Of a stretch of DNA of 64,000 bases, positions 33,240 to 47,706 are shown piece after piece. The first letter of the stretch is position 1; each line of letters starts with the position of its first letter. The notes beneath the pieces are model-generated. The model was given only the letters and a program-made list of their open reading frames with translations, searched no databases and had not been told where the DNA came from. The stretch comes from Phycisphaerales bacterium (lineage in GTDB: Bacteria > Planctomycetota > Phycisphaerae > Phycisphaerales > UBA1924): assembly GCA_019750095.1 (NCBI GenBank), contig JAIEOW010000072.1:1-64000 (forward strand), given 5' to 3'. Both the position numbers and the translations under genes were made by a program.

Positions 33240-36200
33240 TTACGGGCAACCCGTGAACCAGGCATTCAGGAAGTCAAAGATGTCCGCGGCATTGGTCCCG
33301 CCGTCGCCGTTGATATCTGTGTAGCACGGCGGGGGCGAGCCCGGCTGGGCCGGAGGCGCTCCGCCGCCGATCGCTTCACGGACTACGACGCGGAACGCGT
33401 GCTCGCGGCCAACATCGACCCAATCCAAAGGCACGGTGAAGAAATCCAGCAGCCGGCCCGAAGACCACTGACGTGTCCGAACACACGTCGGATCCGGATC
33501 ACACGGGCTCGCCGACGTCGCGAACAGCGTGCGACCCGTCACCGATCCGCCCGATCGCACGCCGATCGAGATCCAGTAGTTCCGCCCCGGTTCCAGCAAC
33601 CACCGAGGATTGTGGAACGCAAGACGGAACCCCGTGAGCGTCTGGCCATCGACCGAGATCTGCTGATTCAGTGGGAACCACTTCGAGACACTCGCCGTGT
33701 GCAAAGGCGTAAGCTGCGGTCGGCCGCATGCGTCCGACGAGTACAGCTCAATGAACCCCTGCGACGGGTTGCAGTTGGTCCAGACATATCCATCCACATA
33801 GCAGACCTCCGACGCCGAGCAGGGCATGGTCACGAAGTCATCGGCTGCACGTGGAGGAGTCGGATTCGCCCGATCTGCGCCCGACGGCGTGCCGCCACCA
33901 GCACCCTCTGATCGCGCTGGCAGGCCATTGTCGTGAAGCACCTTGCAGGACTCCCCGCTGATCTTCCAGGAGAGATTCACACAGCCGGCGCAGCATTCCG
34001 CGGCGTTCTCCCAAGGGCCATAGGCAAACTGCAGATACTGCGCAGTGGGCGTGCCGAATCGCTTCAGCGGGGCCGAACCCATGACACCCCCCGGATTGCT
34101 GGCCGCCGTCGTCGTCACCCAGTAACTCACGTCCTTGCCTGTGTTGTCGGGAAGGCCATACAGAACAACCCAGTACACCTTGCCGCCATCCAGATACAAC
34201 GCATCGGAGCAGAAGTCGAACTTGTACGTCACCAGACTGAAGCCCGTCGGCCCGGGGGCGACGCTCTCGACCGAAGTGTTCAAGTACGTGCGGATCGGAG
34301 AGCCATCCGGACGCCCGTTGCAGTCCTCATAGAACTCCAGCCGAGCCTTGCGGAGCAGAGAGTTCGTGAACATCTGGCCCGTGAAGCTGAACAGCCGATG
34401 CACCTGATTGGGCGCGAGATAGAAGTCGTCGGCCGTCTGCACGCTCATGATCGCCGCTCCGCCCAGGTGCGAGAGCTGGCCGTTCGCTGTCGCCGCATCC
34501 GACGCGGCGATCGAGCCGTTGTCCCACAGGCACTGGCAATCGTCAGCGATTCCGTCGTCATTGCAATCCGGGAGCGTGCCGGAGGTCGACTCACACGAAT
34601 CAGGAATGCCGTTGTTGTTGCAGTCCGAAGCCAGCACCGTCACGATGCTGTTGCACGAAGTCATCAGGCCGTCGGCATACCGCACCGTGACCACCACCGA
34701 GGTGTTCCCGAATGCAAACGGCTGCGCCAGCGGTCGCGAGAACTCCACCGTCGCCGCGCCACCCGGCGTTGGATCGATCGGCGTGGCGTTCAACTGATCG
34801 GCACGCGCCGTCAGCGGCACACATGTCCGCCGAGCATCGATGAACAGATTCCTGCACACCGCTTTGGGACGCACGATGATGGTGATCGTCCTGGCCTCCG
34901 AGACATTGGCCCCGTCGTTCGCCACCCCGCCATCGTCGCGCACGCGCACCCGAGCCGTCGAAAGACCAACGGCATCCGGCGCGATGGTGTAGGTCAGTGT
35001 CCCAGTCGCGCTGATGGAGGGCGGAGTCTCGAACAGGCCAGGATTCGAAACCAGATCAACGATGTAATCCGACACACGCTGGCCGGACTCATTGGCAGGC
35101 CCGGGCACAAAGTTCACCGCCGTGCTCGGCACGATCAGCGTCCCCTGACCTTCCAGCACCGCGGGCGGATCGACGAGCGAGAAGCTCGGCGCATCGTTCA
35201 CAGGCAGCACCGTGATCGTGAACGTCTGCGGCAGCGATGTGTCAACTCCGCCGCCGCTCGTCCCGCCCGAATCCCGCACCGTCACCGTGAACTGCGAAGA
35301 TCCAAAGGCATCAGGAGCTGGCGTAAATCGCAGCGTGCCAGAGCCATCGACCGTTGGCCCACTGCTGAAGAGCGCGCTGTTGGTCACTGCACTCACCGTG
35401 TATCCAAGCACCGTCTGGTCGCTCTCATTGGCCGGACCAGCGATGAACGTGGCCCAGTTCGCAACCACCGCAGATCCCGAATCCTCTCGGACGGCCGACG
35501 GGTTCCCCGCCATGAACGAGGGCCGATCGTTGATCGCTCCGACGGTAATCGTGAACGTGCGGGCAAGGGAAGTGTCGAGGCCGCCGTCGGCCGTCCCGCC
35601 GGAGTCCTGCACCGTCACCGTGAACTGCGCCGTCCCGAACGCATCTGCCGCTGCGGTGTATCGCAGCACACCCGCAACATCCACCGTCGGCGCAGATGCA
35701 AACAGTGAAGCATTCGTCACGTTGGTGACCGAATACCCCAGAACCGTCTGATCACTCTCATTCACCGGCCCAGCCGTGAACACCGACCATCCACTGACCA
35801 CCTGCGGGCCGGCATCTTCCGAAACTCCCGGCGGATCGCTCGCCGCGATCGACGGCCGATCGTTCACTGCCGCGATTGTGATCGTGAACGCCTGTGACGC
35901 CGAGGTGTCGATGCCTCCATCGACAATGCCGCCAGAGTCGCGCACGACCACCGTAAACTGCGCCGTCCCGAACGCATCCGCCGCAGCGGTGAATCGCAGC
36001 GTGCCGCCCGCATCCACCGTCGGCATCGCCGAGAACAAGCTCGGATTCGTAATGTTGGAGACCTGATACTCCAGAACCGTCTGGTCACTCTCGTTCATCG
36101 GCCCCGGACTGAACACGGCCCAGTTGGCCACCACCTGAGACCCGGCGTCTTCAAGGACCCGCCCAGGATTGCTCGCCGCAAAGCTCGGCGCGTCATTGAC

Positions 36201-39200
36201 CGCCGTGACCACAATCGTCGCGGTGCTCGCCGCACCAAGCCCGGCATCGACACCACTGGTCGAAGCTCGCACTGTCAGTGACACCGAACCGAAGAAGTCC
36301 GGCGGCGGTGCATAGCGCAACCCTGTCGCTGCCTGGGCCGCTGTGAGGAACTGGCCAACCGCCACCGGCGCTCCACCCGCCAGCGTCAATCCACCCGGCA
36401 CACTGATCGACTCGATCTTGAAGTGCGTCACTTCCGATCCGTCAACCGAGTTGCGCGCGATCGCCAGCCCACTGGTCGTCGGCACATCCTCGCGTGTCAT
36501 CGCATTCGTCACCTGCGGCGCATCAGCCACAGCGGTCACGATGATTCTTGCGGTCGCCGTGCCCCCGCCGATGCCCGCATCGCTCGCGCTGGTCGACGCC
36601 TGCACATCAAACGACCCGGTCGCCGTCGAGTTGGCGTCGGGGGTGAATCGCAGCCCCGCAGTGCCCTGCGCAACGGTGATGAAGCTCCCGTTTGCGATCG
36701 GCGTCAGGCCGTCATTCTGAAACAGCGTGCCGCTCGTGATCGCGGTGATCTTAAAGTGCGTGACCTCCGCCCCATCTGCGATATTTCGCGAGATGTCAAG
36801 ACCGCTGGACGTCTGCTCGTCTTCACGCGTGATCGCGTCCGTCACGCTTGGCGTGTCGGCGACCGGCGTCACACTTACCGTCGCCGTCGACGGACTCGAA
36901 TCCAACTCCCCGTCATTGGCGACATATCCGAACGCGGCGTAGTTCGAGCCAAACTCATTGGCCGCCGGGCGGAAGAGCACGCGTCCCTGCGAATCGCTCA
37001 CCACCGTGTTCGCCGACACGATTGGCGTCTGCGATGCAAACTGCAGCAACTGCCCACGCGCCGGAAGCGACGTGATGCGGAATCCGATGACGTTGCCCGC
37101 ATCCGGATCCGACGCCGACAGTTGCACCGTGATCAGCGTGTCCTCTGGACCGCTCGCCGTCACATTCGTTGATGTCGGTTCGGTGTTCACCGCTCGTGCA
37201 AGCGCAAACTCGCTCGTGCCCAGCGGCGTTCCGGGAGGCGTGGCAAAGCCCGACTCAGATCCGGGCGACAGCTTCGTCGCCGTCGCCGTGATGAACCGTT
37301 CGCCACCCGGCAAGGTCACACCAAGCGTGAATGGCCCAGTGCGCCCCGTCGCATCCGTCGCAACGTTCAGCGTCCCGAGGAACCGGAGACCCTCGCCAAA
37401 CCCGGTCGGATCGGCGGTCGGCGATGAGAACACCTCGATGCGATACGTCTGATTCGACTCGCTCTCAAGCGTCATCGAGACCACCCCGCTCGTCGACACA
37501 CCGGTGATCACCGGGTAGTTCTGCAAAGAGTTCGGCCCAACCCGCGTGCTGCCCGCAGGACCATTGGGAGTCACACCGTCATCCGAGAGGTCGATCCCAA
37601 GCTGGGCCGAATCGAAGATCGAGTTCCGCAGGATTGAGTTCGCAAGCGATGCGTTCTCCGTCACACGCACGCCATCGCCACCGTTCGAACGGATCGAGTT
37701 GCCCTGCCCACTCTGCGTTCCGCCGATCTGATTGAACGAGGCCCCACTGCTGATCGACACACCTGCCGCGGCGTTCGACATCATCGTCGTGCCATCCGCG
37801 GCCAGACCGATCAGGTTGCTGCGGACGATGTTGCCAGTGGCATCCACTCCAGAGATCTCGACGCCGAATCCACCCGTTGGCGAGGTCTGGCCCGAGATGA
37901 CGTTGCCGCCAGTCCCCGAGGAACCGATGGTGTTGCTCGGCGCACCGCTGATCTGCACGCCCGCCAGGGCGTTGCCCACCGCGACCTGGCCGCTCACATC
38001 AGTGCCGATGAAGTTGCCAAGCACGCGATTCAACTGGCTCGCTGCGTCTCGAATCAGCACGCCCCGCGCACCGTTGCCACTGATCACATTGCGACGCCGC
38101 GGCTCAAGGATCTGGTCGTTATCACCAAACGTACCGATGCGATTGCCGCTGGAGCCGCTGCGGATCACCAGCCCGCTCATCCCGTTCCCGATCCCGGTCG
38201 TGCCGCCCGCCGAGAGACCGATCAGGTTGCCCTGAAGAAGGTTGCCCGTGGCACCCACGCCAGAGATCAGCACGCCATGCTGCAAGTTGCCGGAGATCAC
38301 GTTTCCAGCGCCCACGAACGTTCCGCCGACCAGCGTCTGGTTCACATTGTCCAGCAGCACACCGATCAGGTTGGGCAACGCGGCTGTGCCGCTGGCGTTC
38401 ACGCCGACATAGTTGCCCGCGATCGAGTTGTTCCCGCCCTGGCTCGTGAACGAGATCCCGACGTTTCCGTTGCCCGAGATCACGTTCCGCTCGGCAAGCG
38501 GATTCGCGCTGAACGAGCTCGACCCTACTCGATTCGAAACCCCGTTCTCAATCCACACACCGTTGAAGTTCGGAATCGCTCCGGTTCCCGCGGCATTGGT
38601 GCCGACATGGTTTCCGGCGATCACGTTCGAGTTGGACTGAACGAAAATGCCGGTCCGCAGATTCAGCGCATTGGTCCCGCCGATCACGTTGCGTTCTGCG
38701 GCATCCGACACGCCGTCACCGTTGGTTCCGATCAGGTTCACGTTCGCCGCCGGCGCGATCCAGATGCCAATCTGCCCGTTGCCGCGGCTGGTCGTTCCAT
38801 CCAGGCCGAGGCCCACATAGTTGCCATACACCCAGTTTCGCAGTGCGGCTCGTCCAGCCAGCCTGATTCCCACCCCGTTTGCCGAACCGGCAAACCCGTT
38901 CACCGCGAGCCCGCGGATGATGCAGTCCGACCACTGGATATCCAGACCAAACGTGTTCGGCGCTGACGAACCTTCGATCTCAACCAGCGGCGGCCCTTGG
39001 TAGCTGTTGCCGCCCTGGCTCCATCCATCGATGAAAATGGTCCGTCCGATCATCGGAAGCGCACCGCTCGGCGAGATCGTCCGCGCTTGCCCAAGTGTGC
39101 CGATGGCGAACTTCACGAACCCGCCGCCCGCCGCGTTGTTGTCCTCGATCGCCTTGCGCAGCGAGCCCGCGCCCGCGTCGCTGGTGTTCGTCACCAGGTA

Positions 39201-40514
39201 CCGCTGCGTCTCAAAGGCTCCGATGTCCGGAAGCGCAACGCCGTTGTTGTCCGCGTCCGACGGCCGATTCTGCCGACGCTGATCCTGCGAGGGCGCATCC
39301 GCCGGCGACGCCGCATCGATCGCTGGCGAGTCCGGCTGCAACGCGAACGTCTGCGTCGGCCCACCATTGTCGTTCAGCGGCACCAGACGCGGATTCGTCA
39401 CGCCGACGATGTTCCCGTTCGAGCCGCTGGCGAACGGTCCGCCGATGCCGACAAGGTTGTTGTTGCCCGTCGCCGTCTGCGATGCGGCAAGGTCGCGGAA
39501 CTGTCCCGCGGCAATGTTGCCCGACAGAATCGTGTTGCGAATCGTCAGGCCGCTGCTCGAGAGATCCAGTATCGCACCGCCCGCCGCCGAGGCAAACGTG
39601 TTGTTCGCGGTGATCGTCGCTCCGTTGATCGTCAGAGTCGCATTGGCAAACGCCAACGCCGAGCCCATGCCCGACGTGTTGCCGCTGATCGTCGAGTTCA
39701 CGATCGAGATCGTCCCGCCGCCCGCATCTATGAACGCACCGCCACCCTGACCATCGGTCGAGATCGCGTTATCGCTCAGCGTCGAACGGACGATCGACAC
39801 CGCGTGCGGCCCCGCGCCCGCGATGTACACCCCGCCGCCAAGGTTCCCAGGATTCAGCCCCGAGAGCGTATTTCGGCTGATGAACGCACCATCTAGGGTC
39901 ACGGTCGCCCGACCGCTGGCCCGCTGCACAAACAACCCGCCGCCCATGCTCGCCGCACTGTTTGAAAACAGCTGCGAGTCCGTGATGCTCACCGAGCAAT
40001 CACCAGCGCCGACCACGGCGATCGCGCCGCCCGTCCCTGTCGAACGGTTCTCATAGATCAAGCAGTCGCGCACCGTCAAAGTGCCACCGGTCGCGCTGAT
40101 CGCCGCCCCCGAGGCGTTCACGCCGCTGGTGATCGCCAGCCCGCGAATCTGCACGTTGATCGCGCCGCTCGCCGCAAGGATTCCGAAGTCGCCCGGCATC
40201 CCGATCGGGCTGCGCTGGGTAATGATCACATTCGACCCAGGTCCGATGATCTCAACATCCTGAACGATCACCGGCAGCGGCGTATCCAGATTCAGAAACA
40301 CCGGCGGCGTGGGAACAGCACCAAGAGCAAAGACGATCCGATCCGGCCCTGCGGCCGCATTGGCGTCCTCAATCGCCTTGCGCAGCGAGCCAAGTCCATT
40401 GTCCGCGATCGTGGTGACCATGAAGTCGGCAGCGCGGACCACGGAAGCCAACGCCCCCATGCCGACCGCGGCGGCCAACACCGCCAGATGCCGCTTCTTT
40501 GCACACAACGACAT
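33240..40514 (-). CDS. Giant secreted beta-helix/cadherin-like protein with GC-type dockerin
   Basis: 2,424 residues from ATG 40514 (GGAG eight bases upstream). Signal peptide ends near residue 27 (SVVRA). Two CSLREA-like motifs (LGSLRKAIEDANAA near 40, AGSLRKAIEDNNAA near 470) each precede a right-handed beta-helix rich in GNVISGN and NLIGL repeats. Cadherin-like modules follow: two units of about 95 residues, then four of exactly 111 residues (333 bp) starting at 36200, 35867, 35534 and 35201; the fourth has diverged. Next are calcium-type loops DCNNNGIPDSCE and DCNDDGIADDC. The protein ends in a dockerin-like CYTDINGDGGTNAADIFDFL and terminal GCP. It is probably exported and surface-held; ligand unknown. 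Confidence 0.9.
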   Translation of the reverse strand: MSLCAKKRHLAVLAAAVGMGALASVVRAADFMVTTIADNGLGSLRKAIEDANAAAGPDRIVFALGAVPTPPVFLNLDTPLPVIVQDVEIIGPGSNVIITQRSPIGMPGDFGILAASGAINVQIRGLAITSGVNASGAAISATGGTLTVRDCLIYENRSTGTGGAIAVVGAGDCSVSITDSQLFSNSAASMGGGLFVQRASGRATVTLDGAFISRNTLSGLNPGNLGGGVYIAGAGPHAVSIVRSTLSDNAISTDGQGGGAFIDAGGGTISIVNSTISGNTSGMGSALAFANATLTINGATITANNTFASAAGGAILDLSSSGLTIRNTILSGNIAAGQFRDLAASQTATGNNNLVGIGGPFASGSNGNIVGVTNPRLVPLNDNGGPTQTFALQPDSPAIDAASPADAPSQDQRRQNRPSDADNNGVALPDIGAFETQRYLVTNTSDAGAGSLRKAIEDNNAAGGGFVKFAIGTLGQARTISPSGALPMIGRTIFIDGWSQGGNSYQGPPLVEIEGSSAPNTFGLDIQWSDCIIRGLAVNGFAGSANGVGIRLAGRAALRNWVYGNYVGLGLDGTTSRGNGQIGIWIAPAANVNLIGTNGDGVSDAAERNVIGGTNALNLRTGIFVQSNSNVIAGNHVGTNAAGTGAIPNFNGVWIENGVSNRVGSSSFSANPLAERNVISGNGNVGISFTSQGGNNSIAGNYVGVNASGTAALPNLIGVLLDNVNQTLVGGTFVGAGNVISGNLQHGVLISGVGATGNLLQGNLIGLSAGGTTGIGNGMSGLVIRSGSSGNRIGTFGDNDQILEPRRRNVISGNGARGVLIRDAASQLNRVLGNFIGTDVSGQVAVGNALAGVQISGAPSNTIGSSGTGGNVISGQTSPTGGFGVEISGVDATGNIVRSNLIGLAADGTTMMSNAAAGVSISSGASFNQIGGTQSGQGNSIRSNGGDGVRVTENASLANSILRNSIFDSAQLGIDLSDDGVTPNGPAGSTRVGPNSLQNYPVITGVSTSGVVSMTLESESNQTYRIEVFSSPTADPTGFGEGLRFLGTLNVATDATGRTGPFTLGVTLPGGERFITATATKLSPGSESGFATPPGTPLGTSEFALARAVNTEPTSTNVTASGPEDTLITVQLSASDPDAGNVIGFRITSLPARGQLLQFASQTPIVSANTVVSDSQGRVLFRPAANEFGSNYAAFGYVANDGELDSSPSTATVSVTPVADTPSVTDAITREDEQTSSGLDISRNIADGAEVTHFKITAITSGTLFQNDGLTPIANGSFITVAQGTAGLRFTPDANSTATGSFDVQASTSASDAGIGGGTATARIIVTAVADAPQVTNAMTREDVPTTSGLAIARNSVDGSEVTHFKIESISVPGGLTLAGGAPVAVGQFLTAAQAATGLRYAPPPDFFGSVSLTVRASTSGVDAGLGAASTATIVVTAVNDAPSFAASNPGRVLEDAGSQVVANWAVFSPGPMNESDQTVLEYQVSNITNPSLFSAMPTVDAGGTLRFTAAADAFGTAQFTVVVRDSGGIVDGGIDTSASQAFTITIAAVNDRPSIAASDPPGVSEDAGPQVVSGWSVFTAGPVNESDQTVLGYSVTNVTNASLFASAPTVDVAGVLRYTAAADAFGTAQFTVTVQDSGGTADGGLDTSLARTFTITVGAINDRPSFMAGNPSAVREDSGSAVVANWATFIAGPANESDQTVLGYTVSAVTNSALFSSGPTVDGSGTLRFTPAPDAFGSSQFTVTVRDSGGTSGGGVDTSLPQTFTITVLPVNDAPSFSLVDPPAVLEGQGTLIVPSTAVNFVPGPANESGQRVSDYIVDLVSNPGLFETPPSISATGTLTYTIAPDAVGLSTARVRVRDDGGVANDGANVSEARTITIIVRPKAVCRNLFIDARRTCVPLTARADQLNATPIDPTPGGAATVEFSRPLAQPFAFGNTSVVVTVRYADGLMTSCNSIVTVLASDCNNNGIPDSCESTSGTLPDCNDDGIADDCQCLWDNGSIAASDAATANGQLSHLGGAAIMSVQTADDFYLAPNQVHRLFSFTGQMFTNSLLRKARLEFYEDCNGRPDGSPIRTYLNTSVESVAPGPTGFSLVTYKFDFCSDALYLDGGKVYWVVLYGLPDNTGKDVSYWVTTTAASNPGGVMGSAPLKRFGTPTAQYLQFAYGPWENAAECCAGCVNLSWKISGESCKVLHDNGLPARSEGAGGGTPSGADRANPTPPRAADDFVTMPCSASEVCYVDGYVWTNCNPSQGFIELYSSDACGRPQLTPLHTASVSKWFPLNQQISVDGQTLTGFRLAFHNPRWLLEPGRNYWISIGVRSGGSVTGRTLFATSASPCDPDPTCVRTRQWSSGRLLDFFTVPLDWVDVGREHAFRVVVREAIGGGAPPAQPGSPPPCYTDINGDGGTNAADIFDFLNAWFTGCP
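34869..36200 (-). repeat. 333-bp tandem coding repeats
   Basis: Four tandem modules inside the giant gene with exact period 333 bp, judged from the shared VND/IND-x-PS start at 36200, 35867, 35534 and 35201. The first three are closely similar (EDAG, NESDQTVL, DAFGTAQFTV, RDSGG); the fourth keeps only the framework. Each unit is one cadherin-like domain of 111 residues. Confidence 0.8.
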
Positions 40515-40812
40515 GACACGCGCTCCAATCTCGCACAAGACCGTCCTGGCCCCGCACTGATCCATCACCCACGCGCACACCGGTTGGGAACACGCACCCC
40601 AGCCGTGCCGTAAGTCCTTCTACAACAAGCTATTAGACCACCTCGACTCCCCAACGCAAGACCGGTGGCACAGTTTGTTCCCCATCCGGCATCAAGTTGT
40701 GCGTTATGGGGTGCGCATGTGACGATTGCCCCCCCGAACACGCGGGAAGGTTCGCACCGTTATTGGACGCGTGAGATACGAGTGCGCTCAGTTGGGACCG
40801 AGCACGATGCTC
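40515..40812. other. Gene-free gap upstream of the giant gene
   Basis: 298 bp between the giant gene and a small membrane protein gene. Presumably holds the giant gene's promoter. I see no clear promoter hexamers, terminator or repeat, apart from a run of seven C near 40731. Confidence 0.4.
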
Positions 40813-42048: not shown

Positions 42049-42115
42049 GCATGAACTATAGGGGTCTTCGAACACCGTGGGCCCCGAATCGCATCAGCGA
42101 TTGTCTCCGTATAGC

Positions 42116-43366
42116 ATGCAACAGGTGCCCTTCTTGCGATCCATCCTCGCGTCGCATTCCCGCCCGTGGCTCGCGTTTGCCATCGGGATTCTCGGCGCGC
42201 TCGCGGTCGTGCTGGCCTCCTCCAGTTGTTCACGCCGCGAACGCGGCTACAGCCAGGACACGCCCGACGACGTCGTCAAGTCCGCGATCGCGATGGTCAA
42301 GGCCGGCGACACCGCCAAGCTCAGCAACCTCATCTACGCCGACTCTCTGGAGATGCGTGCCGTACTCCGCGAGTTGGGCAAGCTCCTCCAGAGCATGCAG
42401 AAGCTCTCGGTGGCCTCCGCCCAGCGCTTCCCCGAAGACTTTGCCAAACTTCAGGAACAGGCCGCCGCCGCCGCCAGCGATCCAAAGAACAAGTCGCTCA
42501 TCACCCAGCTCATGGTCGGCCTCGACACCGGCAGCGGCGGCACACCCAAGCAGCCCAACGCCGACGACATCCGAAGCGCCTTCTCCGCCGTCCTGGCCGA
42601 TCCCTATGGCTGGCTCGAGCGCAACAGCGCACGACTCTCCACCGTCATGACCACGGACGACACCGCCGCGGTGCTCTTCGACGGCGAGCCCGCGATCCCC
42701 GTCGTCGGTCTTCCTTTGAAGAAGGAAGACGGCAAGTGGTACGTCTTCATCCCCACCAAGACCCCCCCGCTGTCGCGCGTCATGCCCCGCACGCGGGCCA
42801 TGTGGTCCATCCTCGGCTCGGTCGTCCGCGTCACCGACAACGCTGTCAAGGACCTCACCGTCGACGTCGAAGCGGGCCGAGTCGCAGGGCTCACCAACCT
42901 CACCGACAAGTTCCAGGAAAAAGTCCTCTTCACCGTGGCCATCGCCTTCGGCGCGTATGCCCGCGAACTCGACGTCCACGGCCGGATCGACCGCCGCACG
43001 TCCCAACTCCGCACACGCCAACGCGAGTGGGCCGAAGCTCGCAAGAAAGCCGCCCCAGCCGGCGATCCCGGCGTCTCCAGCAAGCTCACCCGCGCCGTGC
43101 AAGCTGTCGCCGCCACCGAGATCGAACAACTCACCCGAAAAAACAAACCCCTCGGCGTCGACAAGATGTCCGATCGCGAACTGGAAGACCTGATGTCCAC
43201 GTGGCTCAAGTCGGCCGGCCTCCCCATCGCCTTCGACCGCGACCAGTTGAACGGCCCAGAACTCGACGCCCGCATCACCGCCTGGGAAGAAGCCCGCGCC
43301 GCCGAGGCCAAGAAAAAGGCCGAAGCCGATGCCGCCAAACGCGGCACGCGCCGTGCGAACCCTTAA
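42116..43366 (+). CDS. Membrane-anchored protein of unknown function
   Basis: 416 residues from ATG 42116. One N-terminal membrane helix (about residues 17-36, ending SSSCS, so lipidation is conceivable) and a soluble part: a helical segment starting DTPDDVVKSAIAMVKAGDTAKLSNLIY, a mixed middle domain, and a Lys/Ala/Glu-rich helical tail. The DVVKSAIAMVKAGD motif resembles domains that occur in stress-related DUF4878-like proteins, but I cannot place it. Divergent from thiS and convergent with the M14 pair. Confidence 0.65.
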   Translation: MQQVPFLRSILASHSRPWLAFAIGILGALAVVLASSSCSRRERGYSQDTPDDVVKSAIAMVKAGDTAKLSNLIYADSLEMRAVLRELGKLLQSMQKLSVASAQRFPEDFAKLQEQAAAAASDPKNKSLITQLMVGLDTGSGGTPKQPNADDIRSAFSAVLADPYGWLERNSARLSTVMTTDDTAAVLFDGEPAIPVVGLPLKKEDGKWYVFIPTKTPPLSRVMPRTRAMWSILGSVVRVTDNAVKDLTVDVEAGRVAGLTNLTDKFQEKVLFTVAIAFGAYARELDVHGRIDRRTSQLRTRQREWAEARKKAAPAGDPGVSSKLTRAVQAVAATEIEQLTRKNKPLGVDKMSDRELEDLMSTWLKSAGLPIAFDRDQLNGPELDARITAWEEARAAEAKKKAEADAAKRGTRRANP

Positions 43367-43378
43367 GCCTTTGCCTCT

Positions 43379-43406
43379 GGTGGCGCCGGCCTCCCGCCGG
43401 TGTGCC
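43379..43406. repeat. Palindromic repeat, copy 3 (variant)
   Basis: GGTGGCGCCGGCCTCCCGCC then GGTGTGCC, a GC-richer variant of the repeat with a stem around CGCCGGC. It lies in the 56-bp gap between convergent genes, where it may terminate both. Confidence 0.6.
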
Positions 43407-43422
43407 TTGGTCGCCTTTACCT

Positions 43423-45189
43423 TTACTCCTTCGAAGCCGCCTTCAGCTCCACCACGCGCTCAATCCGCCCCGCCCGCTCCCCGGCAAATCCAACTCGAAC
43501 ACTCGCGCCCGCCGTCCCCTCAACAAACCACCGGACAATCCGCGCCCCACGCCCCGGCACCCCATCGGCGAGCTGCACCCGCCCCGGTTCTCTCGCCACC
43601 GGCTGTGCATGCAGATCGTTCCACGACCCAAGCCGAGCCGCGGCAACCACCCGCGCCCCGCTCAGCCCCTCCGCCGTCACAAGGTCCGGCCCGCCGATGC
43701 GTCCGCGCTGCTGAATCACCGATCGCGTCGGCATCAGCCGCACGTTCCGAACCTCCGCCGTGATCTCCCACAGCCCCGGCCCCCGAGCCACCACCTCCAC
43801 CCGCCCAAACTCCATCTTCGGCATCTGATCCGCGTGATACATCGTGAACGCGAAGTTCCGGTGGCATTCCTCCTCCAGCATAAACGTCGGCGTCACGCGG
43901 CTGGACCACTTGTTCAACCCGCCCACCAGCACCCTTCCAAACTGCGGATGCTCCATCTCCTTCAGCGGCGCATACAACTCGCCAAACGCCATCCGATCCC
44001 GCCACAGCCACTGCTGCTCTTCGTTCGGATCGCGCCCCTCACGCTGAAAGTACTTACTCGCCGTCCACAACTCATTGGTAAAGCTGAACGCCCCAAGCCC
44101 CTCGGCAAACCAGTTCAGCTCGCCCCCATGCACCTTGTACAGATCGCGATGCAGCACCATCGCGCGGTAATACGGCAGCATCTGCTCCCCCACGCGCTGC
44201 AACTCGTCATACACACGCACATCTTCCGGCGCGTACACACCCTCGCGATACGCAGCCCCGGGCCCACGCAGAATCATCCCGCCCGTGTTGTGATAACTCT
44301 GCGCCGCCATGATGTTCGGCCGCCCGAGCACAAACTCCGCGATCCCCCGCGTCTCCGGAGCACTCAACGGATACGGCCCAGCGCCACCCTGAATATGCGT
44401 CGGCTGCCAGTCCGTGGGCCAGTTCCGGTTCATGTCATCCGCCAGCGGACCATCCTCATTGATCTGCCCATCCCGATCGTTGTCGATCCCCTCCTGCCCG
44501 AGATTGACATACGTCTTCACCCCAGCCGCCGCGTTCTGATCATCCCGCATGCGCACGAACACCCGCTCATCTGTCTGTGAGCGCACCCATCTCCCCGCGG
44601 GGTCTTCCTTCCACATCTGCGTGATCTGTCCGTCGCCATCAAGATCATCGCTCGGATCTTCATCCGTCTGCCCGTCCAGGTCATTATCCACAGGCCGAAT
44701 GTTGTGCCGCCCCATGTGCGGATTCGTCGCCTGCGTAAACCAGAAGCTCCGCCCATCCGGATTCACCAGCGGCACGAGATAAAACGCGCACCGATCCAGC
44801 AACTCGGTGAGCTTGGCGTTGTGCCCATAGCTGCTCACCAGCTCGTGCAACGTGTACAGCACCACCTCCGTCGCCTGAATCTCGTTCCCATGAATGCTCC
44901 CATCGATGTACATCGCCGGCTTGTGCTCATGCGGCCCCGTTTTCTCCGCATTCACAATCACCAGCCAAACCTCGCGCCCCTGCAGCGACTTCCCGATAGA
45001 TCTCAGCGTCACCAGCTCCGGATACGCCCCCGCGATGTCCCGCAGCATCTTCGTCGTCTGCTCATAGTCGCAGTACCGATCGAATCGCGTCTCGACTTTC
45101 GTCGGCGTCGTCGGCTGTGCATGCACAATGCCCCCGCTCGACGCCACCATCACACCCGCCATCACGCCGATCTTCATCACATCGATCAT
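43423..45189 (-). CDS. M14-family zinc carboxypeptidase with EF-hand-like insert
   Basis: 588 residues from ATG 45189, overlapping the upstream stop (ATGA). Signal peptide to about VHA. Zinc ligands H100 and E103 in SIHGNE, substrate-binding NPDG (143-146) and MNRNWP (253-258), third ligand His in AQSYHNTGG and catalytic Glu in FTNELW are all present. Between NPDG and NRNW there is an insert of about 90 residues with Asp-rich loops (DNDLDGQTDED, DDLDGDGQIT, DNDRDGQINED) like EF-hand calcium loops. A C-terminal beta domain follows. Probably a secreted, calcium-stabilised peptidase. Confidence 0.88.
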   Translation of the reverse strand: MIDVMKIGVMAGVMVASSGGIVHAQPTTPTKVETRFDRYCDYEQTTKMLRDIAGAYPELVTLRSIGKSLQGREVWLVIVNAEKTGPHEHKPAMYIDGSIHGNEIQATEVVLYTLHELVSSYGHNAKLTELLDRCAFYLVPLVNPDGRSFWFTQATNPHMGRHNIRPVDNDLDGQTDEDPSDDLDGDGQITQMWKEDPAGRWVRSQTDERVFVRMRDDQNAAAGVKTYVNLGQEGIDNDRDGQINEDGPLADDMNRNWPTDWQPTHIQGGAGPYPLSAPETRGIAEFVLGRPNIMAAQSYHNTGGMILRGPGAAYREGVYAPEDVRVYDELQRVGEQMLPYYRAMVLHRDLYKVHGGELNWFAEGLGAFSFTNELWTASKYFQREGRDPNEEQQWLWRDRMAFGELYAPLKEMEHPQFGRVLVGGLNKWSSRVTPTFMLEEECHRNFAFTMYHADQMPKMEFGRVEVVARGPGLWEITAEVRNVRLMPTRSVIQQRGRIGGPDLVTAEGLSGARVVAAARLGSWNDLHAQPVAREPGRVQLADGVPGRGARIVRWFVEGTAGASVRVGFAGERAGRIERVVELKAASKE

Positions 45190-46934
45190 GGCCGCACCTC
45201 CGCACCCGCAGCAAGTTCCACCTGAATCTCCGCATCGCCGCACTCCGGCGATGCCAGCGTCACACGCACCTTGTCACCCACCGCACCGATGATCGTCCAA
45301 CTCGCGTCCAGCCGACCACCCGCTGGCACCGCGTCCATCCCCTGCGTCGGCCGCCCGCTCAGCACGCGAGACCGATCAACATCAATCCCAAGCCGCGTCG
45401 GCGGCTGGCGTCGCACCCGCACGCCCATCGCCGAGCGCGTCGGCAGCTGCCCAACGTTCCGTGCCGCAACGCTCACACGCCACACCCCTTCACCCAGTCG
45501 CTCCACCAACACCGGTCCAAGTTCCAGCCGCGGCAACCTCTCCACCAGCGCCGCCACAAACGGCGCCTGCTCCCCCGCCACACGCTCAACATCCGCCGCC
45601 GGAATGTCCTGCTTGAATCCCGGCACGAACCCGCCAATCTCCACATCACCCAAAATCGGATGCTTGAACGCCTTCCATTCCACAAACCCCGGTTCACCAC
45701 CCGAAAGCACCGCCGCATCGCTGATCGCAAGCCATCTGCCTTCGTCGCTGTCCACCACCTTGCGTGTCGGCTGCCCCTCGGGCTTCTCTTCCCCCTCGCC
45801 CTTCTTCTTCTCCGGTTTCTTCAGTTGATCCTCTCGCACCCACGCATCCGCAGCCATCGACCACAGCCCGAGCTGCGCATACGCCCACCCCTGCAGCGAG
45901 CCCGCATTGTCCCGCGTCGGCGGCTTTTCCTGCTTCGTCAAACCCTTGTACTTTTCCGCAAGCTCCACCAGCACCCCACGATCATCGTCCAGCACGTGGT
46001 TGTCTGCGGGTGCCTCGCCCGTCTGATCCATCTTGCCACCGCCGGGCGTGTTCACGATCGTGTCCCAACTCGTGTACACGATCACCCCCACCACACTCGG
46101 CCGCGCCTGCAGCCACTCCACCAGAGCCCGCGTTCCCGGCTCTTCCAGCGGCACACGCCCCGCCTCATCCCGAAACTCCGTCCAGTGATACGGAAACACA
46201 CGATCCACATCCACACCAAGCGTCCCATCCTCTCCATACTGACCATCGCCGTCTTTGTCCGTGCTCTCCGCAATCACGGCATAGCTCGGCTGCTCGCCCT
46301 TGCTCCGATTCGCAGGCCGCATCAACCGCGCATCATCCGGCTCCGTCACCATTTCCGGCACCAGCCCCGACCCGGGCGGCGGATTCTTGATCCGCATCCA
46401 CAGCACGCGCCCGTCTCCATCCATGTCCACCGGACCGTCCTCATCCATCCGTCCATCACGATCATCATCGATCGCCACCAGAGCGCGATCCAGCCGCGAC
46501 GAATCCAATCGCACCCCACGCTCTCCCTTCGCATCCGCACCGCCGCGCAACTCAGGATTCAGCCCGGCCAGCACATACACATCAAACTTCTCCAGCACGC
46601 CCGCATGGTCCTTCACCAATCGCTCGGCGATCGCCAGCGTGATCTCCGGCCCGCGCCGTTGACGCGGGTCGAGGCCTCCCACCACCAGCACCGCCGTCCG
46701 CGGCCGCGCGTCTCCCTCAGCCGCACGTGTCAATCGCAAGATCTCCGGCCCACTGTCCCCAGCCCCCAATCGCTCGCTGATCACACGCACCGATTCCGCG
46801 CCTCCCGTCCCCCCCACGCCCCCCGGCGCCGCCACCAACGCCCCACGCCGCACACCCACCAGCCCGCTTGCCACACCCGTGCTCAAAGCGCCCACGACGC
46901 CCATCGTCAGCAGTTCTGCCAGAAGTTTTCGCAT
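45186..46934 (-). CDS. Inactive-looking M14-like paralogue, secreted
   Basis: 582 residues from ATG 46934. Aligns by eye with the downstream carboxypeptidase over its whole length, including the Asp-rich loops (DDDRDGRMDEDGP, DMDGDGRVLW, DKDGDGQYGEDG) and a similar C-terminal beta domain ending near GRPTQGMDAVP. The catalytic sites are changed: HGNE is replaced by RRGPE, MNRNWP by DVDRVFP, and SYHNTGG by a Trp-containing VYTSWDT. It is probably a pseudoenzyme partner of the coupled active protein. Signal peptide likely. Function otherwise unknown. Confidence 0.75.
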   Translation of the reverse strand: MRKLLAELLTMGVVGALSTGVASGLVGVRRGALVAAPGGVGGTGGAESVRVISERLGAGDSGPEILRLTRAAEGDARPRTAVLVVGGLDPRQRRGPEITLAIAERLVKDHAGVLEKFDVYVLAGLNPELRGGADAKGERGVRLDSSRLDRALVAIDDDRDGRMDEDGPVDMDGDGRVLWMRIKNPPPGSGLVPEMVTEPDDARLMRPANRSKGEQPSYAVIAESTDKDGDGQYGEDGTLGVDVDRVFPYHWTEFRDEAGRVPLEEPGTRALVEWLQARPSVVGVIVYTSWDTIVNTPGGGKMDQTGEAPADNHVLDDDRGVLVELAEKYKGLTKQEKPPTRDNAGSLQGWAYAQLGLWSMAADAWVREDQLKKPEKKKGEGEEKPEGQPTRKVVDSDEGRWLAISDAAVLSGGEPGFVEWKAFKHPILGDVEIGGFVPGFKQDIPAADVERVAGEQAPFVAALVERLPRLELGPVLVERLGEGVWRVSVAARNVGQLPTRSAMGVRVRRQPPTRLGIDVDRSRVLSGRPTQGMDAVPAGGRLDASWTIIGAVGDKVRVTLASPECGDAEIQVELAAGAEVRP

Positions 46935-47066
46935 AGTCGTCCGCACTTCAACAACACCCATCGACCCCAGCCAGTACCACCAGCCGATGCGGCAGAATAC
47001 CGCATCTCGGCGCGCGTGTCTTTCACCAGCATCAGCAAACTCCCGCCCCCGATCTACCATCGCCCC

Positions 47067-47405
47067 ATGCCAACCCCCATCACCCTCAACGCCTTTCAAG
47101 AGCTCATCCGCGACCGCTACTACGCAACCGACTCCGCCCGCGGCCCCGCCGGCACATTCCTCCTCTTCATGGAAGAAGTCGGCGAGCTCGCCACCGCCCT
47201 CCACGACAATCGCGCCCCCGCCTCAGCAACCAACCCCATGGGAAAGAAGCGAGCCATCTCTCCCGAAGAACGCGCCAACCTCGAAGAAGAGTTCGCCGAC
47301 GTCCTCGCGTGGCTCGCCACGCTCGCCAACATCACCGGCGTCTCACTCGAGAAAGCCGTCGAGAAGTACACCATCGCCGATCGCGTCGAAGGCATCAAGG
47401 AGTAG
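47067..47405 (+). CDS. MazG-like nucleotide pyrophosphohydrolase
   Basis: 112 residues from ATG 47067, all-alpha NTP-PPase fold. Metal-binding motif is EEVGELATA, then ANLEEEFADVLAWLATLANITG, the ExxE...ExxD pattern of MazG/RS21-C6-like enzymes that hydrolyse (d)NTPs to monophosphates. It is divergent from the M14 paralogue and converges with a small membrane protein gene. Family clear, substrate unknown. Confidence 0.9.
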   Translation: MPTPITLNAFQELIRDRYYATDSARGPAGTFLLFMEEVGELATALHDNRAPASATNPMGKKRAISPEERANLEEEFADVLAWLATLANITGVSLEKAVEKYTIADRVEGIKE

Positions 47406-47435
47406 TCTGAAGCAATCTTCATCGACCCTGACTTT

Positions 47436-47463
47436 GGTGGCACAGGCGTCCCGCCTGTGTGCC
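47436..47463. repeat. Palindromic repeat, copy 4
   Basis: GGTGGCACAGGCGTCCCGCC then TGTGTGCC; the hairpin CACAGGCG/CGCCTGTG with loop TCC is at 47441-47459. It lies in the gap between the MazG-like gene and the small membrane gene, which converge. Confidence 0.75.
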
Positions 47464-47499
47464 TTTCCTCGAAACTCTCCAACAGGTCAGACGCCCCCG

Positions 47500-47706
47500 C
47501 TACCGCCCCCGCCACAACCTCATCACCACAACGGCGTGCAGCACCCACACCAATAGCGCCACCCCAACCTGCCACCACTTCCCGGCCTGAATCGCGTGAT
47601 TCGCCCACAGAAACACCGCCACCGCACCGATCGCGCACACGCCGATCGCCACCACGCGCGGGGCGGTCATTCCCCGCGGCTCACGTGAACCCGCTTCATC
47701 GCTCAT
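47500..47706 (-). CDS. Small two-helix membrane protein
   Basis: 68 residues from ATG 47706, 13 bp after the argC stop. Two predicted membrane helices (VVAIGVCAIGAVAVFLWA and WWQVGVALLVWVLHAVVVM) and a short polar N-terminus. Unrecognised family. The close spacing after argC supports a real, cotranscribed gene. Confidence 0.55.
   Translation of the reverse strand: MSDEAGSREPRGMTAPRVVAIGVCAIGAVAVFLWANHAIQAGKWWQVGVALLVWVLHAVVVMRLWRGR

Follow-up and report, generated by a model that had tools for sequence, protein, structure and literature searches.

The window considered here comprises 64,000 nucleotides (nt) from a Phycisphaerales bacterium (GenBank assembly GCA_019750095.1, contig JAIEOW010000072.1, positions 1 to 64,000). 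It carries a head-to-tail pair of paralogous genes of the M14 zinc carboxypeptidase family, an upstream gene A and, directly 3' of it, a downstream gene B. Judged by its complete active site, B appears to be an M14 enzyme of the active type. A is a folded, loop-bearing but catalytically dismantled M14 protein, as follows from a confident structural model, from the retention of its loops and from the loss of its zinc ligands and catalytic glutamate. A and B are almost never found apart, which suggests that the dead copy is a needed partner of B and not a relic. The best reading is that A is a conserved pseudopeptidase acting with B, either as a secreted complex or as an in-trans regulator. An earlier note, made from the letters of this DNA, had proposed an active enzyme and an inactive paralogue in one operon; the complete residues of B, the lost triad of A and the conserved gene order bear this out, and the heterodimer or inhibitor pair that it went on to imagine may be what the two proteins form.

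The two proteins part ways at the catalytic site. B carries the residues of an active M14 peptidase, namely the zinc ligands H69/E72/H196, R127/R145 and the catalytic E270, as read from aligned sequence rows: H100, E103, R161, N254, R255, H300, Y341, Y351 and E373 are present in 129/129 B rows, R161 corresponding to what we take, from the M14 fold, to be the substrate arginine R127. The zinc ligands are thus all kept in B and not in A, where the window copy replaces H69 by D89, E72 by Q92, H196 by T288 and E270 by D363, and N144-R145 reads D244-R245. None of 120 A rows retains two or more zinc ligands and five retain one. The first zinc histidine has become Asp or Glu in 107 of them, E72 has become His in 61, the third ligand is Gly in 101, and no Glu occupies the catalytic column in any of 121 A rows (counted before identical strings were removed). 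The wider set used for tree building gives the same picture: 0/72 A rows keep all three ligands or Glu270, whereas 78/79 B rows keep all four residues, the remaining row being a fragment, and an A copy with an intact triad is found in neither the 120-row nor the 72-row set. Deep A copies with two of the three ligands do occur, one with H and E (L213, genome G551) and one with E and H (L224, genome G359), which fits an ancestral enzyme that lost its ligands step by step.

These row counts come with some qualifications. Only identical strings were removed from the 120 A and 129 B rows, which do not all represent different organisms because some genomes contribute to both the loci L064-L116 and the loci L127-L206; three A rows out of the 120 are fragments lacking the first zinc columns. 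The fragments L071_B, L084_B, L111_A, L115_A and L116_A were left out before the first alignment. An A fragment at L110, labelled B by score, is the single odd B row in the first alignments and is excluded from A1 and A2.

Despite the loss of the catalytic site, the Asp-rich loops persist in both proteins: 88-99% of A rows and 97-100% of B rows retain the Asp/Glu at the loop columns. Where A is conserved to at least 85% and differs from B, the columns are occupied by hydrophobic or aromatic residues, by Gly, Pro or Arg, or in one case by Glu. A family-wide alternative zinc site in A was considered and rejected, as these columns hold no His or Cys. Single planctomycete copies that combine D/E-x-x-H with an extra His may nevertheless have a changed zinc site.

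Much of this had been anticipated by the earlier note. Its ATGA overlap of adjacent paralogues is exact to the coordinate, the stop TGA of A occupying 45188-45186 and the start ATG of B 45189-45187. Its description of shared Asp-rich loops and a shared C-terminal beta domain holds, as do the loss of HxxE and the third His in A and the retention of all motifs in B, and the alignment of zinc-site residues that it asked for reveals no conserved alternative site in A. Its claim that A had lost NRN stands for the window copy, which reads DRV, and falls as a family trait: the last Asn is kept in 112/120 A rows, the Arg in 59/120 and the first Asn in 60/120.

Both proteins belong to the M14 family. 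Pfam Peptidase_M14 matches B with 151 bits and A with 35.9 bits (cut-off 21.6), the latter match covering residues 235-359 only; the same model, PF00246, matches 70/70 A members. NCBIfam offers no family for either window protein and, across the 70 A members, nothing beyond weak single-member matches. A profile-profile alignment of A and B (hhalign) spans 514 columns end to end with an E value of 1.2e-93 and includes the C-terminal beta domain. AlphaFold2 models are confident for A (predicted local distance difference test, pLDDT, 88.1; predicted template modelling score, pTM, 0.89) and for B (pLDDT 91.7, pTM 0.91). Superposed on carboxypeptidase T, the B model gives a Z score of 38.5 (2.7 Å, 301 aligned residues) and the A model one of 23.9 (3.4 Å, 281 aligned). 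Carboxypeptidase T shares the top of both fold lists with many other M14 entries. Each model strongly resembles M14 structures; M16 and M23 structures are missing from the lists, which in itself is no test. B has the M14 fold by its model, and A by its model together with homology.

Evidence for a partnership comes from the distribution of the two genes. Most of the genomes are drafts or metagenome-assembled genomes (MAGs), and phylum names are those of the record titles. Among 298 genomes of the class Phycisphaerae, A occurs in 52 (in G029 as an 80-residue stretch only) and B, at E<1e-100, in 51, and the genomes with a strong B are the same 51 that have A. This was the co-occurrence check suggested by the earlier note, and its outcome favours the pair. 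In 50/51 class genomes the genes, or their pieces at contig breaks, lie adjacent on one strand, A preceding B. The exception, G248, keeps both genes on separate contigs (L143, L097), neither of them near a contig end. A wider scan of species genomes with the B alignment yielded at least 510 confirmed relatives; among the best 80 loci, 78 have A ahead of B on the same strand, the exceptions being L143, from the separated-gene genome G248, and L168, which begins at a contig end. At L181 a mere fragment of A is present, about 1.1 kb ahead of B. The titles among the best 80 include Phycisphaerales, Belliella, Algoriphagus, Psychroflexus, Sediminibacterium, an Ignavibacteriales MAG and an Acidobacteria MAG, and the pair is present in the named Bacteroidota Belliella aquatica and Psychroflexus longus.

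Samples from other phyla extend this pattern. In tallies where matches were classed by score and part of them checked by motif, the phylum of the Belliella record holds 25 A loci in 24/198 genomes, 24 of them adjoining a B, and that of the Acidobacteria record 25 A loci in 24/149 genomes, 25/25 adjoining a B; one of the latter pairs, in G941, came only from the follow-up of fetched regions. Genes lying apart were again both kept in G846, where A and B occupy two contigs and neither gene is close to a contig end (L231, L232). In G789 a B stands at a contig start without A, and G930 has a further A, ending at a contig end, without B. For the phylum of the window itself, at least 104/392 genomes match at E 1e-20, and because the profile also matches B and lone relatives this is not a count of pairs. 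As a side observation, A at L233 (G770) is split over two frames and followed by two B copies. The joint conservation of A and B is far above chance, and, going by record titles, three or four phyla share the A-then-B order.

Phylogenetic analysis separates A from the remaining M14 proteins. In a tree of 143 sequences, A forms one clade (support 0.999), B another (0.999) and lone relatives, group C, a third (0.95); two sequences in the tree sets are duplicates (L244 of L218, L209 of L196). Once sequences from the phylum of the Acidobacteria record are added, A is still one clade (1.0) and B as labelled is not, likely because one protein of a tandem of two active M14 genes (L260, L261) was labelled B by score. 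This tandem has active motifs in both copies and is another kind of pair. All trees are unrooted; A may descend from B, or the two may descend from a third protein. The lone relatives shown keep HxxE and the catalytic Glu. A separate observation concerns L230, L234, L237-L240, L243, L254-L256 and L263, which are lone M14 proteins with HSGE and the catalytic Glu and an Asp at the third zinc-ligand column. The earlier note had named lone A homologues with intact motifs as evidence that would speak against it, and none was found; the A clade does not include the lone relatives that have active motifs. That search covered 20 regions fetched from the phylum of the Acidobacteria record, mostly picked for middling A scores, and the regions that lacked a B contained either distinct lone types that keep active motifs or parts of A lying at the end of a contig.

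Purifying selection acts on A. Across ten comparisons by the Nei-Gojobori method, the ratio of nonsynonymous to synonymous substitution rates (dN/dS) ranges from 0.10 to 0.45 in A and from 0.06 to 0.32 in B, with some dS values near saturation and one B value undefined.

As for the arrangement of the genes, a GGAGG lies inside the end of A, 7 nt ahead of the ATG of B. When ATG and GTG codons are counted as starts if a signal-like N-terminus follows, 35/50 class pairs (window included) and 45/78 wider pairs allow a -4 overlap, 3/50 and 5/78 allow a -1 overlap, and 12/50 and 28/78 have other spacings. Judged from the overlap alone, A and B may be translationally coupled. The N-terminus of B resembles a Sec signal by a simple hydrophobicity score and that of A looks signal-like by eye. 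Lipoprotein anchoring of A as a general trait was considered and discarded, since lipobox-like N-termini occur in only 2/71 A and 4/80 B open reading frames (ORFs).

How might the two proteins work together? We favour, at about even chances, a heteromeric complex in which A and B form one functional unit, because A is near-absent without B, because both genes are kept where they lie apart and because precedents exist in the M16 and M23 families. B would be a secreted zinc carboxypeptidase, and A would be made just ahead of it, in similar amounts, and exported together with it. A would then bind B via surfaces that both inherited from their common ancestor, giving a heteromer presumably stabilised by Ca, in which A provides folding help, substrate docking or gating and B provides catalysis.

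Several observations sit uneasily with this complex. The proposed partnership draws on genes and single-chain models. Overlaps of -4 are frequent in bacterial operons, and 11/12 Bacteroidota-titled loci have a gap of 2-21 nt to the first candidate start; taken with the class and wider counts, these loci make the overlap typical for planctomycetes, not universal. Mean column identity is 25% in A and 46% in B, and such greater variability might be expected of a protein free of a partner. Tree distances of paired A and B correlate well (r 0.88 over 59 pairs; shuffles reach at most 0.15), but this correlation mostly reflects shared descent. Finally, no A-B fusion protein occurs among 364 ORFs with matches from four ORF sets.

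Other explanations account for parts of the evidence. A could be an in-trans inhibitor or chaperone of B, comparable to a procarboxypeptidase prodomain, that must leave or open, so that contact would be transient. In B only about 30-37 residues, signal included, precede the part that aligns with mature carboxypeptidases, which leaves no room for a classical prodomain, and A is encoded first and stays together with B. Yet A keeps the M14 fold and its loops, beyond what an inhibitory plug needs, and no segment of A was identified that would reach the active site of B. We regard this explanation as a serious but distinctly less probable competitor. Somewhat less likely again is an independent secreted protein that binds a peptide, the cell wall or a surface in the pathway of B without touching B. 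Animal M14 pseudopeptidases are described as interacting proteins, and the third domain of carboxypeptidase D has been suggested to present substrate (PMC11266112); the genes can also lie apart within a genome, as in G248 and G846. Against such independence, the tallied sets contain no A in a genome lacking B except the A at a contig end in G930.

The remaining two explanations concern A on its own. That it works as an enzyme, through an altered metal site or some other chemistry, seems highly improbable to us. The exchanges of H69 for Asp/Glu and of E72 for His make a D/E-x-x-H pair frequent in A, and a His stands two columns past the lost third ligand in 62/120 A rows; none of these residues is invariant, however, the A-specific conserved columns are without His or Cys, Bacteroidota-titled rows lack the extra His, and the window A has none of these His. 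We give least credence, practically none, to A as a decaying, functionless duplicate of B. A does evolve faster, with a mean patristic distance of 2.82 against 1.74 for B (random subsets), but it is retained beside B across phyla, and purifying selection and the kept loops (88-99%) weigh strongly against decay for the family. The heteromeric complex of A and B is preferred over the inhibitor or chaperone and over the independent binding protein, with a confidence that does not exceed an even chance.

The pair can be compared with several known systems. By profile search, the best solved relative of both A and B is carboxypeptidase T (M14A, Thermoactinomyces), a single chain of about 325 residues; compared with it, A and B have additional long Asp-rich loops and an extra C-terminal beta domain, and A is without a zinc site. 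M14 pseudopeptidases are known as carboxypeptidase D domain III (CPD-III), AEBP1, CPXM1, CPXM2 and Ecm14 (PMC11266112). A 2024 review of pseudopeptidases lists four vertebrate M14 members and one characterised yeast member, none of them bacterial (PMC11266112). Like A, these proteins have the M14 fold and have lost catalytic residues (PMC11266112). CPD-III keeps H69 and CPXM1 all three ligands, whereas most A copies have lost all three (PMC11266112). Within M14 the nearest precedent is carboxypeptidase D, in which CPD-III, an inactive domain next to two active ones, raises fly viability; CPD-III resides in one chain with the active M14 domains, while A is a separate bacterial gene (PMC11266112).

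Two-gene precedents come from other metallopeptidases. In the Thermus M16 pair TTHA1264/TTHA1265, TTHA1264 alone is monomeric and inactive (PMC12731061) and the gene beside it encodes its partner; a two-gene operon is the source of prokaryotic MPP homologues (PMC12731061, PMC11266112). In the M16B pairs (MPP alpha/beta, TTHA1264/TTHA1265 and SPH2681/SPH2682) an active protein and a homologous partner form a working heterodimer (PMC12731061, PMC11266112). Similarly, Csd1/Csd2 (M23B, Helicobacter pylori) is a heterodimer of a metallopeptidase and a zinc-less homologue, which, unlike A and B, has the LytM fold and is joined through extra helical domains (PMC5053510). A-B shares with the M16B and Csd1/Csd2 pairs the adjacent genes for an active and an inactive homologue. 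The M16B pairs differ in fold and family (HXXEH peptidases), and contact is proven for them and predicted for A-B. A literature search by title and abstract opening, outside subscription journals and preprints, turned up no such pair with a bacterial M14 pseudopeptidase. Pseudopeptidases as such are known, as are pairs of active and inactive metallopeptidases, while the A family and the A-B pair appear to be undescribed in the literature searched.

The features of the locus are collected below.

Table 1. Coordinates of the A-B gene pair and its main features in the window.
Feature	Coordinates	Strand	Basis
A: secreted-type M14 pseudopeptidase, 582 amino acids, upstream gene	45186..46934	-	Pfam, alignment, model
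B: secreted-type M14 zinc carboxypeptidase (predicted), complete active site, 588 amino acids, downstream gene	43423..45189	-	Pfam, alignment, model
ATGA stop/start overlap of A and B	45186..45189	-	sequence; -4 overlap possible in related pairs
GGAGG, ribosome-binding-like site for B within the end of A	45197..45201	-	sequence
A residues 89-92 (DPRQ), place of the HxxE zinc motif	46659..46670	-	alignment
A Asp-rich loop 1, residues 156-177	46404..46469	-	conserved Asp/Glu columns
A Asp-rich loop 2, residues 226-236	46227..46259	-	conserved Asp/Glu columns
B zinc motif HGNE, residues 100-103	44881..44892	-	H and E in 129/129 B rows
B Asp-rich loop 1, residues 168-189	44623..44688	-	conserved Asp/Glu columns
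B Asp-rich loop 2, residues 236-246	44452..44484	-	conserved Asp/Glu columns
B third zinc ligand His300	44290..44292	-	129/129 B rows
B catalytic Glu373 (= Glu270 of carboxypeptidase A)	44071..44073	-	129/129 B rows

Around the pair, a MazG-domain ORF (47067-47405, plus strand; Pfam PF03819, 35.2 bits) lies upstream and divergent from A. Downstream and convergent is an ORF of 429 amino acids (42077-43366, plus strand) that has no Pfam match at E 1 and, by eye, begins like a lipoprotein. Farther away, an ORF of 2446 amino acids (33240-40580, minus strand) with tandemly repeated segments has, by eye, the look of a giant secreted or surface protein. Rfam at gathering score gave no RNA element match in 43000-47500. 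The same genome has a third M14 gene on another contig (L001, G000:C94), an open frame of 845 amino acids matching Peptidase_M14 with 271.7 bits.

Across loci, no third operon gene conserved across phyla was seen among the top 14 clusters of ORFs of at least 120 amino acids in flanks of up to 5 kb, which are often cut by contig ends. The commonest recurring neighbours are found at 16/80 loci, these being of planctomycete type. There the pair lies directly behind a common upstream ORF at L142, L144, L150-L152, L154, L157, L158, L162 and L164, and the same ORF is ahead of the pair at L165, L167, L169, L173, L177 and L178, giving the 16 loci in total. One recurring neighbour cluster is ABC-transporter-like by eye, and at most of the 16 loci such ORFs stand ahead of the common upstream ORF.

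Taken further, A and B might constitute an obligate two-gene M14 holoenzyme, the M14 counterpart of MPP alpha/beta, in which an ancient pseudopeptidase subunit would be needed for folding, substrate gating or Ca-dependent activity and which either predates the split of the phyla or spread as a unit; we advance this tentatively, at a little under even chances. The findings describe a family of M14 pseudopeptidases in bacteria, represented by many pairs, with an active partner encoded alongside and with two of the three zinc ligands persisting in deep members. Many of the proteins that Pfam assigns to M14 in these phyla are probably not peptidases. With the pair at hand, also in named Bacteroidota, the role of a dead copy for a live one becomes testable in two proteins of the secreted type.

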